Below, in pieces: positions 23,045-29,849 of a stretch of DNA of 34,762 nt (positions within the stretch are counted from its first letter, which is position 1; every line of letters starts with the position of its first letter). The notes below the pieces were generated by a model. The model was not told the origin of the DNA, ran no database searches, and worked only from the letters and a program-made list of their open reading frames with translations. This stretch comes from Clostridia bacterium (GTDB lineage: Bacteria; Bacillota; Clostridia; Christensenellales; CAG-138). The stretch is taken from NCBI GenBank assembly GCA_017554455.1, contig JAFZIH010000152.1, positions 1 to 34,762 of the forward strand, in the 5' to 3' direction. Position numbers and translations under genes: made by a program.

Positions 23045-23934
23045 ACGGCGTACAAACAATGAAGATCTTCAGTATTCTTTCGAAGATCGAACAACTCGTG
23101 GCGGACAGCCCGAAACCGAGATTCAATAACGGGGCAAACCGGCGCATCGTCGACGAGGAAGAGCTTTTGGCGCTCCTCGACGATCTCAAAGCGACGATTC
23201 CGGAGGATATCAGAAGAGCTTCCGGCATCATTGCGGAGAAGGAAAACACGCTTCGCGACGCAAATGAACAGGCGGATCAGATCGTTGCGGACGCGCAGAA
23301 AGACGCGGACGAGATGCGCAGTCAGGCGCAGCAGGCGGCGACGGACGTCTATAATCAGGCGGTCGCCGAGTATGAAGCGCTGATCACCGAAAACTCGGTC
23401 TATCAGGCGGCGGTACGCCGCGCGGACGATCTCCGTCAGGCGGCGGAGGAGAACGCGGACTCGATCTGCAGCGGCGCACGCGCCTATGCGGACGACATCC
23501 TTGCCGATGTGCAGCGGTATCTCAACGACTATATGAAGATGATCAACGGAAACCGCGAAGAGCTCGACGTCCGTCCGAGACCCGTCGCGCCGGATCTTGA
23601 GATCCCCGAACCCGCGCCTGCGCCGATCACCGTACCGGCGCCCGAACCGCGTCGTCAGGAACCCGCGAGAAAGCCGCAGGCGGAGCCGCAGCGTGCGCCG
23701 CAGAAGCCCGCACCGCGTCCCGAGCCCGAAGACGATGAGGACGGTTACGAGGAAGAGGAGCCGAAGAAGCAGCGCAAGAAGGGCTTCTTTGCCCGCATGC
23801 TCGGCATCGAGGAAGTCGAAGAGGACGAGGAAGAGTACGACGACGAAGAGGAAGAGGAGCGTCCTGCGCCCAAGAAGAAGCGCCGCAGCATCTTCTCCTT
23901 CGGTTCCGACGACGAGGACGAAGACGAAGAATAA
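23041..23934 (+). CDS. Coiled-coil protein with acidic/basic repeat tail, coaD-linked
   Basis: 297 aa from the ATG overlapping the coaD stop. Residues 1-50 contain a conserved-looking segment (KIFSILSKIEQLVADSPK, then IVDEEELLALLDDLK). Residues about 55-180 form a long Ala/Glu/Gln-rich coiled coil resembling V-ATPase subunit H/E-type stalk proteins and DivIVA-like proteins. A Pro-rich linker (about 190-240) follows. The C-terminus is a twofold module: a basic cluster and aromatic patch (KKQRKKGFFARMLG), an acidic run, then a second basic-aromatic patch (KKKRRSIFSFG) and an acidic end. The basic-aromatic patches could bind membrane or nucleic acid. Homologs next to coaD occur in other Clostridia, as far as I recall, but the role is not known to me. 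Confidence 0.85.
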   Translation: MNGVQTMKIFSILSKIEQLVADSPKPRFNNGANRRIVDEEELLALLDDLKATIPEDIRRASGIIAEKENTLRDANEQADQIVADAQKDADEMRSQAQQAATDVYNQAVAEYEALITENSVYQAAVRRADDLRQAAEENADSICSGARAYADDILADVQRYLNDYMKMINGNREELDVRPRPVAPDLEIPEPAPAPITVPAPEPRRQEPARKPQAEPQRAPQKPAPRPEPEDDEDGYEEEEPKKQRKKGFFARMLGIEEVEEDEEEYDDEEEEERPAPKKKRRSIFSFGSDDEDEDEE

Positions 23935-23951
23935 GCCATTTATCCGATATG

Positions 23952-23987
23952 ATCCGGGGGAGCAAGCTCTCCCGGATTTTCTTTTTC
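23952..23987 (+). terminator. Intrinsic terminator of rsmD-coaD operon
   Basis: An 11-bp stem with one G-T pair (23952-23962 with 23967-23977) and a CAAG loop is followed by TTTTCTTTTT. Confidence 0.92.
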
Positions 23988-24011
23988 CTGATTGCAGCAA
24001 AACGCGCCGTT

Positions 24012-24120
24012 CATCCGTGTTATGGGTGAGTGTTGAAACACGGATGACGCCGAAAGGGTCAGAGACAGGGAACCGCGGGCATGGCGCCTTCGACCGGCGA
24101 ACCCACTGACCTTTTCCGGC
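24012..24120 (+). promoter_or_regulatory. Structured 5' leader or operator of ECF sigma gene
   Basis: Two pairing blocks are visible. First, CATCCGTGTT (24012-24021) pairs perfectly with AACACGGATG (24037-24046) around 15 nt. Second, 24049-24062 (GCCGAAAGGGTCAG) pairs with 24106-24120 (CTGACCTTTTCCGGC) as a 14-bp stem with one G-T pair and one bulged C. It encloses 43 nt with an inner GGG/CCC pairing and a CGCC/GGCG hairpin. The long stem ends 4 nt before the AAAGGAG of the sigma gene. I could not match it to a known riboswitch. TGAAAC at 24034 with GGTC 17 bp on is a weak ECF-type promoter candidate, in which case the first inverted repeat would be DNA. Confidence 0.55.
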
Positions 24121-24136
24121 AGCGAAAGGAGAGAAT

Positions 24137-24643
24137 ATGGAGCAAAGAGACAAACAGGCGAAACGGGATCGCGAGATTGTGCGCATCGTCGAAACGTATT
24201 CCGACATGCTGCTGCGCATTGCCCTAAACCGCGTGAACAGCATCGCGGAAGCGGAGGACGTTGTGCAGAGCACATTCGAACGGTTGATCAGAAGACAGCC
24301 GCACTTTGCAGATCGCGAGCACGAAAAGGCATGGCTCATCAAGACGGCGATCCGCATCTGTATCGACGAGGCGAGAAAGACAAGCAAACGCGCGGAAGCG
24401 CCGCTGAACGAGGAGATCACGGCGGCGTATTCGGAGGAGAGCTATGAGCTTCTCGATACGATCCGTCGGCTCCCGGAACGGGACCGCGACGCCGTGTACC
24501 TCTATTACTATGAGGAATACGCGGTGAAAGACGTCGCAAAGCTGCTCGGCGAGCGCGAGGGCACGACACGGTCCCGGCTTTCCCGCGCAAGACAAAAACT
24601 CAAAGCAATCATGGAAGGAGAAAACAATGAACAGGTTTTATAA
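24137..24643 (+). CDS. ECF-type RNA polymerase sigma factor
   Basis: 168 aa with only the two regions of ECF sigma factors. Region 2 spans about residues 18-80 (YSDMLLRIALNRVNSIAEAEDVVQSTFERLIRR split across 21-53, then WLIKTAIRICIDEARK). Region 4 spans about 106-158, with LPERDRDAVYLYYYEEY and the helix-turn-helix VKDVAKLLGEREGTTRSRLSRARQ. AAAGGAGAGAAT precedes the ATG. The next gene, a membrane-anchored protein overlapping by 17 bp, is the probable anti-sigma factor. The target regulon is unknown; the two lipoprotein genes downstream are candidates. Confidence 0.93.
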   Translation: MEQRDKQAKRDREIVRIVETYSDMLLRIALNRVNSIAEAEDVVQSTFERLIRRQPHFADREHEKAWLIKTAIRICIDEARKTSKRAEAPLNEEITAAYSEESYELLDTIRRLPERDRDAVYLYYYEEYAVKDVAKLLGEREGTTRSRLSRARQKLKAIMEGENNEQVL

Positions 24644-26054
24644 GGGCTATGACGATATCACGGCGTCCGATACGTTCAAAAGCCGCATGGTGCGGACGCT
24701 GCAAAGCAAAACGAAAGAGGAGACCGCAGCGAAATCGGTGCGGCTCCCGATCAAGCGGCGCACGCTTGCGAACCTAATCGCGGCGGCAATCCTGGTGCTT
24801 GCGATCGGCACGGCGGCAGCGGCAACGATCATTGCGAAAAACTACTACTCGCCGGATATGTACATGATGCAGGACAAGGAGCAGCGCGAGCAGAACCAGA
24901 ACGCGATCCCGGACATTGAAAACGCGATCGCCTCCGCAAAGCCGGTCGGCGGCGAAACGAGCGTCGTGATGCTGCCGGAGATGGAGGACGCGGACGTGCT
25001 GAACGAGTGGCGGCAGAAGAAGGGCCAGCCGGTCTATTCCGAGGAGGACTGGGCTTGGATCCGCGAGATCCGCCCGGAAATCGAGGAGGTTTTGGTCGAC
25101 GGAAGCACGATCGTGTTCAACGTTCGTTTGAACACCGATCACGGCAAGAGCTTCGATGTGTGGAATGCAGCCGACGACGAACAGCAGATCGACGCGGCGT
25201 GCGACGAGGCGACGATCACATTTACGAAGGACGGACGGACGATTGACGAATTCGTTTCCGCCGGAACGGGGATCAATCCGGGTTCGATCAGCGAAGACGG
25301 CGCGACGCTGGGCAGCGAGATCGACATGTATGATCTGTCCGAGCCGCTTCCGACCGAAGGAACGGTCCATGTGGTCATGACGATCGGCGTCCGCGACGCC
25401 AAGGTGGACGACATGGCGGACATCGGACTGCTTGCGAAGATCACCTATTCCTTCGATTTCGACGCATCCGCAGGCGCGGACGTCGCCGCGCCGATCGTAA
25501 CGGAACGACCGCTGTCCGGGTCGGTCGTGCTGACGGGCAGGGCGAACGGGCGTGATTTCAACAAGCGCGTATCGCTCGACGGCGTGGTGCTCGAGGAAAC
25601 GCTGAATTTCCGAAAGACCGGTATCTATGTCACGTATCGCGTGAAGTCCGCGCCGGAGGAATGGTACCGTGCGCCGTACGAGCCGGAGCTGCCCGGAGAG
25701 TACGTTTCAATGTACAGGGATATGCTGCTCGACCAGGGCAGCGATTCCGGAAGCGTGCCCGGCTTCTACGTGACCTGCGTGCCGAAGGACAGCACGGACG
25801 GGGACGCGGTGATTGTCCCGGGCAAGGCGAACGCGATGGTTGCCGGCGAATACATCTGCATCCTGCCGTTCTTCCCGTCGGATTACGATGCGGTCAAGGC
25901 GACGGGCTATGAGATCCGGCTGTATTATCAATGCGTGTCCGAATTCAACGGCGAGCCGGTCGGCGAGGACTGGATCCTCCCCAAGGGCGCCGACGGTTAC
26001 GATCTGGATACGATCCGGCAGCCGATCGCGACGTTCGATCTCATCATGCCGTAA
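24627..26054 (+). CDS. Membrane-anchored probable anti-sigma factor (DUF4179-like)
   Basis: 475 aa. A cytoplasmic N-terminus of about 45 residues (with ASDTFKSRMVRTLQSKTKEE, the usual kind of sigma-contacting helix) leads to one membrane segment (about 48-70, LANLIAAAILVLAIGTAAAA) and a 400-residue extracytoplasmic region rich in beta strands. This layout, the 17-bp overlap with the sigma gene and GGAAGGAG upstream point to an anti-sigma factor of the kind often annotated DUF4179 in Clostridia; the domain name is from memory. The outer part has repeated strands of the pattern VHVVMTIGVRDAKV and GSVVLTGRANG, suggesting two Ig-like domains. No zinc-binding HxxxCxxC motif is present, so it is not a ZAS-type anti-sigma factor. 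Confidence 0.85.
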   Translation: MNRFYKGYDDITASDTFKSRMVRTLQSKTKEETAAKSVRLPIKRRTLANLIAAAILVLAIGTAAAATIIAKNYYSPDMYMMQDKEQREQNQNAIPDIENAIASAKPVGGETSVVMLPEMEDADVLNEWRQKKGQPVYSEEDWAWIREIRPEIEEVLVDGSTIVFNVRLNTDHGKSFDVWNAADDEQQIDAACDEATITFTKDGRTIDEFVSAGTGINPGSISEDGATLGSEIDMYDLSEPLPTEGTVHVVMTIGVRDAKVDDMADIGLLAKITYSFDFDASAGADVAAPIVTERPLSGSVVLTGRANGRDFNKRVSLDGVVLEETLNFRKTGIYVTYRVKSAPEEWYRAPYEPELPGEYVSMYRDMLLDQGSDSGSVPGFYVTCVPKDSTDGDAVIVPGKANAMVAGEYICILPFFPSDYDAVKATGYEIRLYYQCVSEFNGEPVGEDWILPKGADGYDLDTIRQPIATFDLIMP

Positions 26055-26076
26055 GATTGCGGTGCTTTGTAGCGTT

Positions 26077-26138
26077 GTAGGGACGACCATCGGTCGTCCG
26101 ATCCTCTGATGAGGCGGACGGGCAATGCCCGTCCCTAC
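26077..26138. repeat. Paired-hairpin GTAGGG element, 62 bp
   Basis: The ends GTAGGGACG and CGTCCCTAC are inverted. Within lie two hairpins, GGACGACC with GGTCGTCC and GGACGGGC with GCCCGTCC, so the element can fold as a double hairpin or a cruciform. A fragment of the right hairpin recurs at 26172-26193. It has no coding capacity. Confidence 0.85.
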
Positions 26139-26227
26139 ATATATTCCGCAGAACGACAAATTGTGAGATATGACGGGCATTGCGTCCGTCCCTTTGCGCA
26201 CCGTTACACAGTCCGATACAAAGAGGG

Positions 26228-26365
26228 GTGTGTGTATTGATGTATCATTTGTATAATTTGTATAATTTGTATAATTTGTATCATTTGTATTTTTAGAAGA
26301 CGAAAAACCATCTGAAAGAACACCTTATGATACAATTTATACAATTTATACATTGTTACACACAC
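26228..26365. repeat. Large imperfect inverted repeat, AT-rich
   Basis: The left arm (26228-26263, beginning GTGTGTGTA) and right arm (26330-26365, ending TACACACAC) are complementary at 30 of 36 positions, with a loop of 66 nt. The left arm contains the start of the 9-bp array and the right arm three copies of a related 9-mer in inverse orientation. A second, overlapping hairpin, GTTACACACAC with GTGTTTGTAAC (26356-26380), competes with the right arm. Confidence 0.75.
26241..26292 (+). repeat. 9-bp tandem array with repeated TATAAT hexamers
   Basis: About six copies of TTGTATAAT or TTGTATCAT stand in tandem. Perfect TATAAT hexamers start at 26252, 26261 and 26270. TTGATG at 26237 is 18 bp before the one at 26261, so this may be a promoter reading toward the lipoprotein gene at 26535. 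The rest of the 26055-26534 gap is described in the neighbouring repeat entries; I see no gene in it. Confidence 0.8.
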
Positions 26366-26449: not shown

Positions 26450-26511
26450 GTAGGGACGAGCATTGCTCGTCCGCGAACACAGAGGTTCGGATGGGCAATG
26501 CCCATCCCTGC
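26450..26511. repeat. Paired-hairpin GTAGGG element, second 62-bp copy
   Basis: Same length and layout as the copy at 26077: GGACGAGC with GCTCGTCC, a 16-nt linker, then GGATGGGC with GCCCATCC, ending CCCTGC. Stem sequences differ from the first copy, but pairing is kept. It ends 12 bp before the ribosome binding site of the next lipoprotein gene. Confidence 0.85.
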
Positions 26512-26534
26512 AGGAATCATAGGGAGAATACCAT

Positions 26535-28142
26535 ATGAAACGAATTTGTATCCTGTTGCTTGCGGTACTGATGCTTCTTGGCTGTCAACCGACGCCGGAG
26601 ACGGAATTTATCGTGAACAAGGGCGATCAAAGCGCCATGATCGACATGGCAAGAGGCGAGGACGTCGTGAGCGCCGCAGGCGGCAATGACGGAGCAGAAC
26701 CCGCGGCGCTTGATTACCGCGCGCTCTATGGGATCCCGGAACGGTTGACGGGAACCTTTTCCGACACGGAGGGCAAGGTCCTCGTGCACATCGACGCAGA
26801 GGTTGCGGTACCGGACGCGCCGCTGCCGATCGTCCGCGTGTTCAGTCGGGATTTCGATCAGCAGACGGTGACGCGCATCTGGAACGTGCTGGTAAAGGAT
26901 ACGCCGATGTTTGAGCTCGTCGACGAAACGAACCTGAATCGGAAAACACAGATCGAGGACGAACTGAAATTCTTTTACGCCATGCTGGACAATCCGGAAC
27001 TGATGCGGGAGCACCTCTATGATTCCGAAGCGGAAGTGATGGAGGAGATCGCATCCCTTCAAGCAGAGTATCAGAAGACCGTGGACGCCGAACCGAAGGA
27101 GAAGCGGCGTGTGGACAGCACCATGTGGCGGCGCAGCGTCGGCTTTGCCGACAAGCCGGACCTCACGCAGCAGGAGGGGCTTTGGGCGATCTCCGAGGAC
27201 GAGAGCATGCGCTTTACGGTGTACAACAGCACCGACAACGATGAGCCGATCTATGAAACGGTCGAGGGAGGCTGGAACGTGATCCAAAACAATAAGCACG
27301 CGTCTCTGAGCTTTCGCCGCGAATCCGATGTGACGGATATCGTATTTGGGAATCGTACGATCGGCGTTCCGTTCGGCACGATCATAAAGGAGGACGATCC
27401 GCTGCCGGAGCGCGCAAAGGGATCGCTTCCGTATACACCGAAGGAGGCGGCGGACAGGGTGCGCGCATTTCTCAAAGAGGCGGGGCTTTCGGACGAATCC
27501 ACGATCGCCTATCTCTCTCTCGACGACGACGCGGGCGTGTATGGCCGTGACGACGAGCGGGAGATGCTTCCGCATGAGCCGACGATGTTTTGTTACCACG
27601 CAGTGTGTGCGCGCAAGGTGAACGGCGCGCCGTGCTGCAACACGGAAATAAACGTATACGAGAGCCGCGGCGGCGAAAGCACCAAGACCGCGTACGCGCC
27701 GAGCTGGGCATATGAGCAGATGCACGTATACCTCGACGCCGACGGCATATTTCGGTTCGGATGGGGCACGCCGCTTTCCGTTTCCGATACGCTGACCGCG
27801 TTCAGCAAGCTGAAGCCGTTCGACGAGATCAGAACGATCGCGGAGAAGCGCTTCCCGCTGCAGTATCTGGAGGAGGCGAACCGGGCGACGGAAGTGTCGG
27901 ATCATCCGAATACGCAGCTTCCGATCACCGAGATCACGGTCGACCGCATCACGCTCGGGCTATGGCGCATTGCCGAGCAGGACAAGCTCGGGCAGGGGCT
28001 TCTCGTGCCCGCGTACTGCTTTTACGGCAATATGAAAAGCACATGGTATCAGGACGGTACGCCGCGCGTCGAATACAACGATCTGCTGTTTGTAATCAAC
28101 GCCGTCGACGGCAGCGTGATCGACCCCGCAAAGGGGTATTGA
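26535..28142 (+). CDS. Paralogous lipoprotein, copy 7
   Basis: 535 aa, the longest of the eight. The signal peptide MKRICILLLAVLMLLGC ends in lipobox LLGC (Cys 17), followed by QPTPETEFIVNKGD. After this comes MIDMARGEDVV and a LDYRALYGIPERL block shared with copy 8 but not with the minus-strand six. The middle has an LPIVRVFSRDF strand, long Glu-rich helices and an EAADRVRAFLKEAGLSDES helix. The C-terminal half has KLKPFDEIRTI, ITVDRITLGLWRI, LLVPAYCFYG and the closing INAVDGSVIDPAKGY. GGGAGA precedes the start. It lies downstream of the ECF sigma/anti-sigma pair, but 480 bp of repeat-rich DNA separate them, so it probably has its own promoter. Function unknown. Confidence 0.9.
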   Translation: MKRICILLLAVLMLLGCQPTPETEFIVNKGDQSAMIDMARGEDVVSAAGGNDGAEPAALDYRALYGIPERLTGTFSDTEGKVLVHIDAEVAVPDAPLPIVRVFSRDFDQQTVTRIWNVLVKDTPMFELVDETNLNRKTQIEDELKFFYAMLDNPELMREHLYDSEAEVMEEIASLQAEYQKTVDAEPKEKRRVDSTMWRRSVGFADKPDLTQQEGLWAISEDESMRFTVYNSTDNDEPIYETVEGGWNVIQNNKHASLSFRRESDVTDIVFGNRTIGVPFGTIIKEDDPLPERAKGSLPYTPKEAADRVRAFLKEAGLSDESTIAYLSLDDDAGVYGRDDEREMLPHEPTMFCYHAVCARKVNGAPCCNTEINVYESRGGESTKTAYAPSWAYEQMHVYLDADGIFRFGWGTPLSVSDTLTAFSKLKPFDEIRTIAEKRFPLQYLEEANRATEVSDHPNTQLPITEITVDRITLGLWRIAEQDKLGQGLLVPAYCFYGNMKSTWYQDGTPRVEYNDLLFVINAVDGSVIDPAKGY

Positions 28143-28367: not shown

Positions 28368-29849
28368 ATGAAAAAGATACTTGTCATACTGCTTGCGGCG
28401 CTTTTACTTTGCGCCTGTCAGCCGACGCCGGAAACGGACGCCGTGCGGCAGAAGAATCAGGACGCCATGATCGAGATGGCGCGCGGAGAGGACGTTGTAC
28501 AAAATGCGAGCGGCGGGGAGGAAGACAAGGAGCTTCCGACGCTCGATTACCGTATCTTGTACGGTATTCCGGAGCATCTGACCGAAGAATTCCCGGGCCT
28601 CTCCGATAAGGTGAAAATCGTCGTCGACGCGGATATCAACGTGCCGGATCAGCCGCTGCCGATCGTGCGCGCCGTGCCGACGGACTTTTCGCAGGAGTTG
28701 GTCTATGACCTCTGGCACCGGCTTGTTGGGGATCGGAAAATGCTGATTGACGACGAGCGGGAAACCAAGGAGTCGATCAAGGCGCAGCTCGAATACTGGG
28801 TCAATGTTCTGAACAGCCCGGAGGTTCACGACTACGAGCCGGGCGAGGTCGAGCAAATGGTGAAGGACCTGCAGACACGCTTCAACGACGCGCCGGACGG
28901 CGAGCCGCCGAAGGAGGCGGACGGGACGCTTGTCATCGGCGAATTACGCGATTCGCACGGCAACGTCATTGCGCACCGCACGGAGCTGCAGGCGTATGAG
29001 GTCGGCGGCGTCAGCTTCAATCTACAGAACAGTTTTGACCTCAAGGAGACAGTGTATGAATCCGATGGTGCGTACTGTATGATGAACAATGCCGCCCTGA
29101 CCTATGCCACATCCGATCAGACGCCGCACGCACAGGATTCGAGCGGAACCCTTGCATCGTTCCATCTGAACCCGGGCGATCCGATCCCAGAACAGGCGAA
29201 GGCGTATATTCACTCGACGCCCGCCGAGATTCGGGCGCGTGCGGATGCATTGCTCGAACAGATGGGGATTTCGGACGAATACGCGGTGTCTGCGATCGAG
29301 CTGGAACCGGACGCCGATCCATATGAGCACGGAAAGCTGATCGGGTATGCGTATCGGGTCGATTGCGTGCGAACGGTTTACGGCGTTCCGGTCGGCAACG
29401 AGATGGCGCTCGGCATGAACCTGTATTGGCCGGAGGATATGATGGCGCCGGCATGGCTTTATGAGAATTTCTATATCTGGATGGACGACAGCGACGAAAT
29501 GCGCTTTTTCTGGAGCTCGCCGATCGAGACGCAGGACACGGTCCAGCCGAATTGTCATCTGCTACCGTTTTCGGAGATACAGAGCGTGATGGAATCGCGC
29601 TTGCCGATGCTACTGAACCGCAAGGCGTCGCAGGAGTATGTGAAAAGCTGCACCGCTTTGATCCACCGGATCGATCTCTGCCTCTGGCGCATTCGCGAAA
29701 AGAACACGGTCGAGACAGGACTTTTGGTTCCGGTGTATTGCTTATATATGGATATCCGCTACGAACAGGAATACAATCGAAATGAAGAGGATATTCTCAT
29801 CATCAACGCGGTCGACGGCACGGTCATCGACCCGTATAACGGATATTGA
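28368..29849 (+). CDS. Paralogous lipoprotein, copy 8
   Basis: 493 aa. The signal peptide MKKILVILLAALLLCAC (Cys 17) is followed by QPTPETDAVRQKNQDAMIEM; the NKGD of the other copies is lost. MARGEDVV and LDYRILYGIPEHLTEEF pair it with copy 7. Further shared blocks are an LPIVRAVPTDF strand, a RARADALLEQMGISDEY helix, LLPFSEIQSVM, LIHRIDLCLWRI, LLVPVYCLYM and the ending INAVDGTVIDPYNGY. AAAGGAG stands 9 nt before the ATG. A terminator follows the gene. A palindromic element lies between copies 7 and 8, so their cotranscription is uncertain. Function unknown. Confidence 0.9.
   Translation: MKKILVILLAALLLCACQPTPETDAVRQKNQDAMIEMARGEDVVQNASGGEEDKELPTLDYRILYGIPEHLTEEFPGLSDKVKIVVDADINVPDQPLPIVRAVPTDFSQELVYDLWHRLVGDRKMLIDDERETKESIKAQLEYWVNVLNSPEVHDYEPGEVEQMVKDLQTRFNDAPDGEPPKEADGTLVIGELRDSHGNVIAHRTELQAYEVGGVSFNLQNSFDLKETVYESDGAYCMMNNAALTYATSDQTPHAQDSSGTLASFHLNPGDPIPEQAKAYIHSTPAEIRARADALLEQMGISDEYAVSAIELEPDADPYEHGKLIGYAYRVDCVRTVYGVPVGNEMALGMNLYWPEDMMAPAWLYENFYIWMDDSDEMRFFWSSPIETQDTVQPNCHLLPFSEIQSVMESRLPMLLNRKASQEYVKSCTALIHRIDLCLWRIREKNTVETGLLVPVYCLYMDIRYEQEYNRNEEDILIINAVDGTVIDPYNGY

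Follow-up and report, generated by a model that had tools for sequence, protein, structure and literature searches.

The window, that is, the whole stretch of 34,762 nucleotides analysed here, is one contig of a 2.29 Mb genome. The region of interest centres on the gene of an ECF sigma factor of 168 aa (24137-24643), in which sigma factor domains 2 and 4 are both present (Pfam Sigma70_r2 and Sigma70_r4_2, exceeding the cut-off) and which also matches NCBIfam sigma70-ECF. The end of this gene is overlapped by an open reading frame at 24627-26054, whose product gave no family match in Pfam and NCBIfam searches and has a short N-terminal part, a hydrophobic stretch and a long C-terminal part. Judged by position and this layout, it is probably the cognate membrane anti-sigma factor. 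Two tandem DUF6034 lipoprotein-like genes (26535-28142 and 28368-29849) adjoin the operon. The terminator, the sigma operon and the leader features described below are all on the + strand.

The gene upstream is DivIVA-like and ends at 23934. Its predicted intrinsic terminator, a strong one at 23951-23978, splits it from the sigma operon, and the same-genus orthologs share a G+C-rich hairpin with a T-run at this position. The first-pass annotation had described two inverted repeats as filling the whole gap before the sigma gene. This does not hold, as the gap starts at 23935 and also contains the terminator and an ECF-type promoter at 23993-24021.

Several repeats lie in the intergenic space that separates the anti-sigma gene from the first of the DUF6034 genes. 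A palindromic repeat (GTAGGGACGA.CAT.G.TCGTCCG / CGGACGGGCAATGCCCGTCCCTACA) occurs there in two copies of opposite orientation, at 26076-26139 and 26450-26512, together with a 9-bp tandem array of TGTATAATT (5.6 copies, 26241-26290), the complement of which recurs downstream at 26327-26365 as a 39-nt inverted repeat of 82%.

The promoter and the first inverted repeat

The promoter consists of a -35 element TGCAGC (23993-23998), a 17-nt spacer and a -10 element CGTGTT (24016-24021). The arrangement TGCAGC, 17 nt, CGTnTT was found at the same position and spacing in 11/11 same-genus orthologs of the sigma gene, with the -35 element deviating in two of them (CGCAGC in one, TGCAAC in one), and in most of the relatives outside the genus but within the family a TGCA-type element and CGTATT or CGTTTT occupy the same position. 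In its own genome the promoter motif has exactly two copies, one ahead of the sigma gene and the other preceding a lipoprotein gene of contig C98, whose product starts much as the DUF6034 lipoproteins encoded next to the sigma gene do. Such a pattern is the hallmark of autoregulation by an ECF sigma factor, and is best explained if the sigma factor activates its own operon from this site. From the spacing that is usual between an ECF -10 element and the start site, transcription is predicted to begin at about 24028-24030. This is upstream of 24062, in line with the first-pass annotation, whose structured leader depended on a start no further downstream than that position.

The first of the two repeats had been reported as a perfect 10-bp inverted repeat, and is indeed perfect, with 11 bp and a 15-nt loop (24011-24021 and 24037-24047, together 24011-24047). 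Its left arm overlaps the -10 element, while the right arm is located in the inserted segment described below. Since the left arm lies upstream of the inferred start, it is very probably untranscribed, and the mRNA is not expected to contain the 11-bp hairpin. Transcripts reading through from the upstream gene could restore it, but the terminator at 23951-23978 opposes this. The first hairpin thus appears to be largely a promoter feature, explained by ordinary promoter logic. The match between the -10 element and the insert arm arises because the -10 element reads CGTG in the bearers of the insert: the fourth base is G in 5/5 of these, as compared to 0/6 of the same-genus species without the insert, which have CGTC, CGTT or CGTA. 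This coupling may represent a single event, the bearers seeming to share one origin. In G021 the left arm has an unmatched A (ACGTGTT), and the pairing is broken without compensation.

The inserted segment and its distribution

Between the promoter and the Shine-Dalgarno sequence lies an inserted segment of about 95 nt (24030-24124), which is absent from 6/11 same-genus orthologs. It is present in five species (the genome of the window, G006, G010, G012 and G021), where it measures 74-96 nt between GGTGA and AAAGGAG. In the six orthologs without it the promoter is directly followed by GGTGAAAGGAG, or a sequence very similar to it, and then the start codon, and nearly all examined relatives from other genera of the family likewise lack it, the promoter running straight into AAAGGAG. 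The predicted leader length is accordingly 12-14 nt in the six species without the insert versus about 86-108 nt in those with it. The relatives that share the leader are Clostridia metagenome assemblies; one is named from cattle omasum, and the remaining ones are classed as rumen type from their isolate names or by inference.

The insert starts with an invariant GTGTTGAAACACGGA, identical in the five species and containing a UGAA loop. This motif occurs once in each of the five bearers and in none of the rest of the 23 genomes of the genus. Within it, an invariant palindrome GTGTTGAAACAC at 24030-24041 would in RNA fold as GUGU-UGAA-ACAC, a hairpin of 4 bp located at the 5' end or close to it, and this hairpin is predicted to form in 5/5 leaders. 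The sequence GTGTTNNAACAC has no other occurrence in its own genome. A 19-mer scan of a genome collection, from which the genome of the window was possibly left out, returned four of the five bearer species and one unrelated record (Mariniphaga), which we take as a chance match. The same applies to the one further match, in another family, that was obtained from 396 sampled genomes of the order when two mismatches were allowed. Searching with a profile built from the insert gave no strong match elsewhere among the genus genomes, and the weak ones (E 0.017-0.09) were also ascribed to chance. A mobile element of the REP or MITE type was considered and rejected, as there is one insert copy per genome and the profile gave only these weak matches in the rest of the genus.

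While the first 19 nt of the insert are invariant, the remainder is 40-67% identical between species, and the sigma genes of the five species are 78-90% identical. On a tree built from the DNA of the sigma and anti-sigma genes (the protein tree was set aside since one row, L017, is truncated) the five bearers form one group with support 71/74, and a single gain of the insert would therefore be the simplest account, though not a firm one. It was also observed that the insert of G021 (L019) is the closest to that of the window (67%), while its sigma operon groups with that of G006 (99/99). The inserts of G021 and G006 are only 40% identical despite this grouping, a possible case of leader exchange between species.

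An encoded leader peptide was another candidate, starting from a GTG at 24026 in a frame that is open in all five leaders. It was discarded, as the length differences between the inserts are not multiples of three, the peptides are alike only over their first six residues and the sequence upstream leaves no space for a ribosome site.

The long stem and exposure of the Shine-Dalgarno sequence

The second repeat forms the long stem of the leader (24049-24120), in which 24049-24062 pairs with 24106-24120 around the enclosed 24063-24105. The first-pass annotation gave it as a 14-bp stem around 43 nt, ending 4 nt before the Shine-Dalgarno sequence, and the computed fold agrees: 14 pairs, including one G.U, and one bulged C, stopping 4 nt before that site. 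Its core, 24052-24062 with 24106-24116, is 11 nt long with 91% complementarity, the arms being 43 nt apart. A perfect repeat of at least 10 bp was found in 2/1000 shuffles of 24012-24136, a rarity to be read against the ten perfect repeats of at least 10 bp in the window as a whole. The folding energy of 23990-24150 is ordinary (z -0.89, with 32/200 shuffles as good), and the five inserts folded with z values from -0.4 to -2.2.

A column alignment of the five sequences contained no compensatory pair; such an alignment misplaces stem arms of unequal length. Two tests that are free of this misalignment both favour the native pairing. When the 5' and 3' arms were swapped between species, the native assignment was the best of 120 (it beats the 119 others), also after removal of the shared GCCG/CGGC base, and the summed native pairing energy was reached by 0/3000 shuffles. 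Most of the signal in the shuffle test comes from G000, G021 and G010, while G012 is borderline and G006 weak (p 0.12). These results favour maintenance of the long stem with new sequence in the related species, and in the predicted fold of all five inserts the stem ends just before the Shine-Dalgarno sequence. The earlier description of a highly structured leader is thereby upheld as regards a structured leader, presumably transcribed, with a stem remade in relatives, but not as regards the overall fold, which is no better than that of shuffled sequences. Similarly, the covariation looked for in related leaders is nil by columns, while the arm-swap and shuffle tests on the five sequences point to a kept stem.

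The Shine-Dalgarno sequence AAAGGAG (24125-24131) is predicted to be exposed. It was unpaired at 0.93-0.99 in 5/5 leaders folded alone (37 C), and with 60 nt of coding sequence added at 0.86-0.95 in 4/5 leaders, the value for G006 being 0.49. Masking by default is thus unlikely. In the window, 24110-24115 (CCUUUU) can pair with 24053-24058 or, alternatively, with GAAAGG (24124-24129) of the Shine-Dalgarno region, the two pairings being mutually exclusive; by inspection, the masking pairing is absent from the other four leaders. An RNA thermometer is characterised by a Shine-Dalgarno sequence or start codon that is paired at low temperature; in the five leaders the Shine-Dalgarno sequence is predicted to be unpaired at 37 C. 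Rfam scans gave no match in the window (gathering score), in the leader (E up to 10) or in the insert of any of the five species, and the lack of fit to known riboswitch patterns noted from the first is thus borne out. A weak L20_leader match in L068 (27.7 bits, gathering 58.7) was dismissed since it falls on the upstream gene end and the terminator. A ligand riboswitch or a thermosensor is possible, yet unsupported by these results.

Possible roles of the leader

The reading that we tentatively favour, with slightly less than even confidence, is that the insert provides an autoregulated ECF operon with a structured 5' UTR specific to this clade, the effect of which is passive, most likely on mRNA stability or on ribosome loading. 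In this scenario the sigma factor would switch on its own operon from 23993-24021, and in an ancestor of the five rumen Clostridia species about 75-95 nt would have come between the start region and the Shine-Dalgarno sequence. The leader would thereby have grown from about 13 nt, opening directly with the ribosome site, to about 86-108 nt, and the new transcript would carry a small 5'-terminal hairpin and then a long, fast-evolving stem stopping before an exposed Shine-Dalgarno sequence. Hairpin and stem might slow 5'-end-dependent decay and hold the ribosome site open, and the two effects together would set the yield of sigma factor per transcript. In Bacillus, long stretches of downstream mRNA are stabilised by a hairpin, a ribosome site or a bound protein located at the 5' end or close to it (PMC3997798), and it is because of such 5'-end hairpins, together with the exposed Shine-Dalgarno sequence, that the passive leader is favoured. 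The likeness to the 5'-terminal stabiliser hairpins of Bacillus lies in a small predicted hairpin within a few nt of the inferred 5' end and a Shine-Dalgarno sequence left exposed; the difference is that here a long second stem follows, the start is a predicted one and the effect on decay is putative. Against a passive leader stand the ordinary folding energy, the lack of a compensatory column pair, the small set of five sequences, and G006 with its weak stem and half-paired Shine-Dalgarno sequence. In the short-leader relatives, moreover, a 5'-terminal ribosome site is already present and can be stabilising by itself.

The insert could instead be neutral, a palindrome-rich segment tolerated without function between promoter and Shine-Dalgarno sequence. 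Its confinement to one species group, a body that evolves faster than coding sequence and the intergenic palindromic repeats common nearby (26076-26139, 26450-26512) are consistent with this, but we consider it rather unlikely in view of the 19 invariant nt in species whose sigma genes differ by 10-22%, stem arms that change together and the lack of a second insert copy in any genome of the genus. A true cis-regulatory switch (a ligand riboswitch, a thermosensor or an autogenous protein site), in which 24110-24115 would alternate between partners and turn translation on or off, appears improbable. Both alternative pairings can be written for the window, the stem adjoins the Shine-Dalgarno sequence and it is kept in relatives; however, the masking pairing is missing from the other four leaders, the Shine-Dalgarno sequence is predicted to be exposed in all five, and the RNA body, 40-67% identical, is without a large conserved ligand-binding core. 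With no Rfam match, nil column covariation and a distribution limited to five species of one genus, the translational switch of the first-pass annotation is not sustained. A structured leader that ends beside the Shine-Dalgarno sequence is a feature shared with translational riboswitches and RNA thermometers; the differences are that this one gave no Rfam match and shows no conserved masking pairing, no broad distribution and no large conserved core.

The element might also act as DNA, with GTGTTGAAACAC just past the start, perhaps together with the -10 arm CCGTGTT, bound by a repressor or another protein controlling the promoter. The palindrome is perfect and identical in 5/5 species, and the G of the -10 element that matches the insert arm in the five bearers is C, T or A in the six species without the insert. 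Such an operator is nevertheless very doubtful: GTGTTNNAACAC is found nowhere else in its own genome, which argues against a wider regulon, the left arm of G021 carries the unmatched A, and the kept stem would be left unexplained. There is an equally slim chance that a recently acquired, undescribed cis-regulatory RNA provides one rumen Clostridia lineage with a second, post-transcriptional layer of sensing (ligand, temperature or protein) over ECF autoregulation.

Our modest conclusion is that a lineage-specific structured insert explains the second repeat, the long stem, and that this is neither a known riboswitch nor a demonstrated new one. The operon resembles other autoregulated ECF sigma and anti-sigma operons in that the sigma gene has an ECF-type promoter of its own and is overlapped at its end by a membrane-protein gene, and differs in that five species have a structured segment of about 75-95 nt from promoter to Shine-Dalgarno sequence which is absent from their relatives. 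Among the titles and abstracts of the papers retrieved, we found none on an RNA leader of such kind ahead of an ECF sigma gene. The locus also illustrates that inverted repeats taken for RNA hairpins can in large part belong to a promoter. With the passive 5' UTR as the favoured reading, the genus offers a natural comparison in which the same self-activated sigma promoter is followed by a leader of about 13 nt or by a structured one of about 86-108 nt, and these relatives would allow a direct test of how a sigma circuit with positive feedback is affected when a 5' UTR is newly gained.
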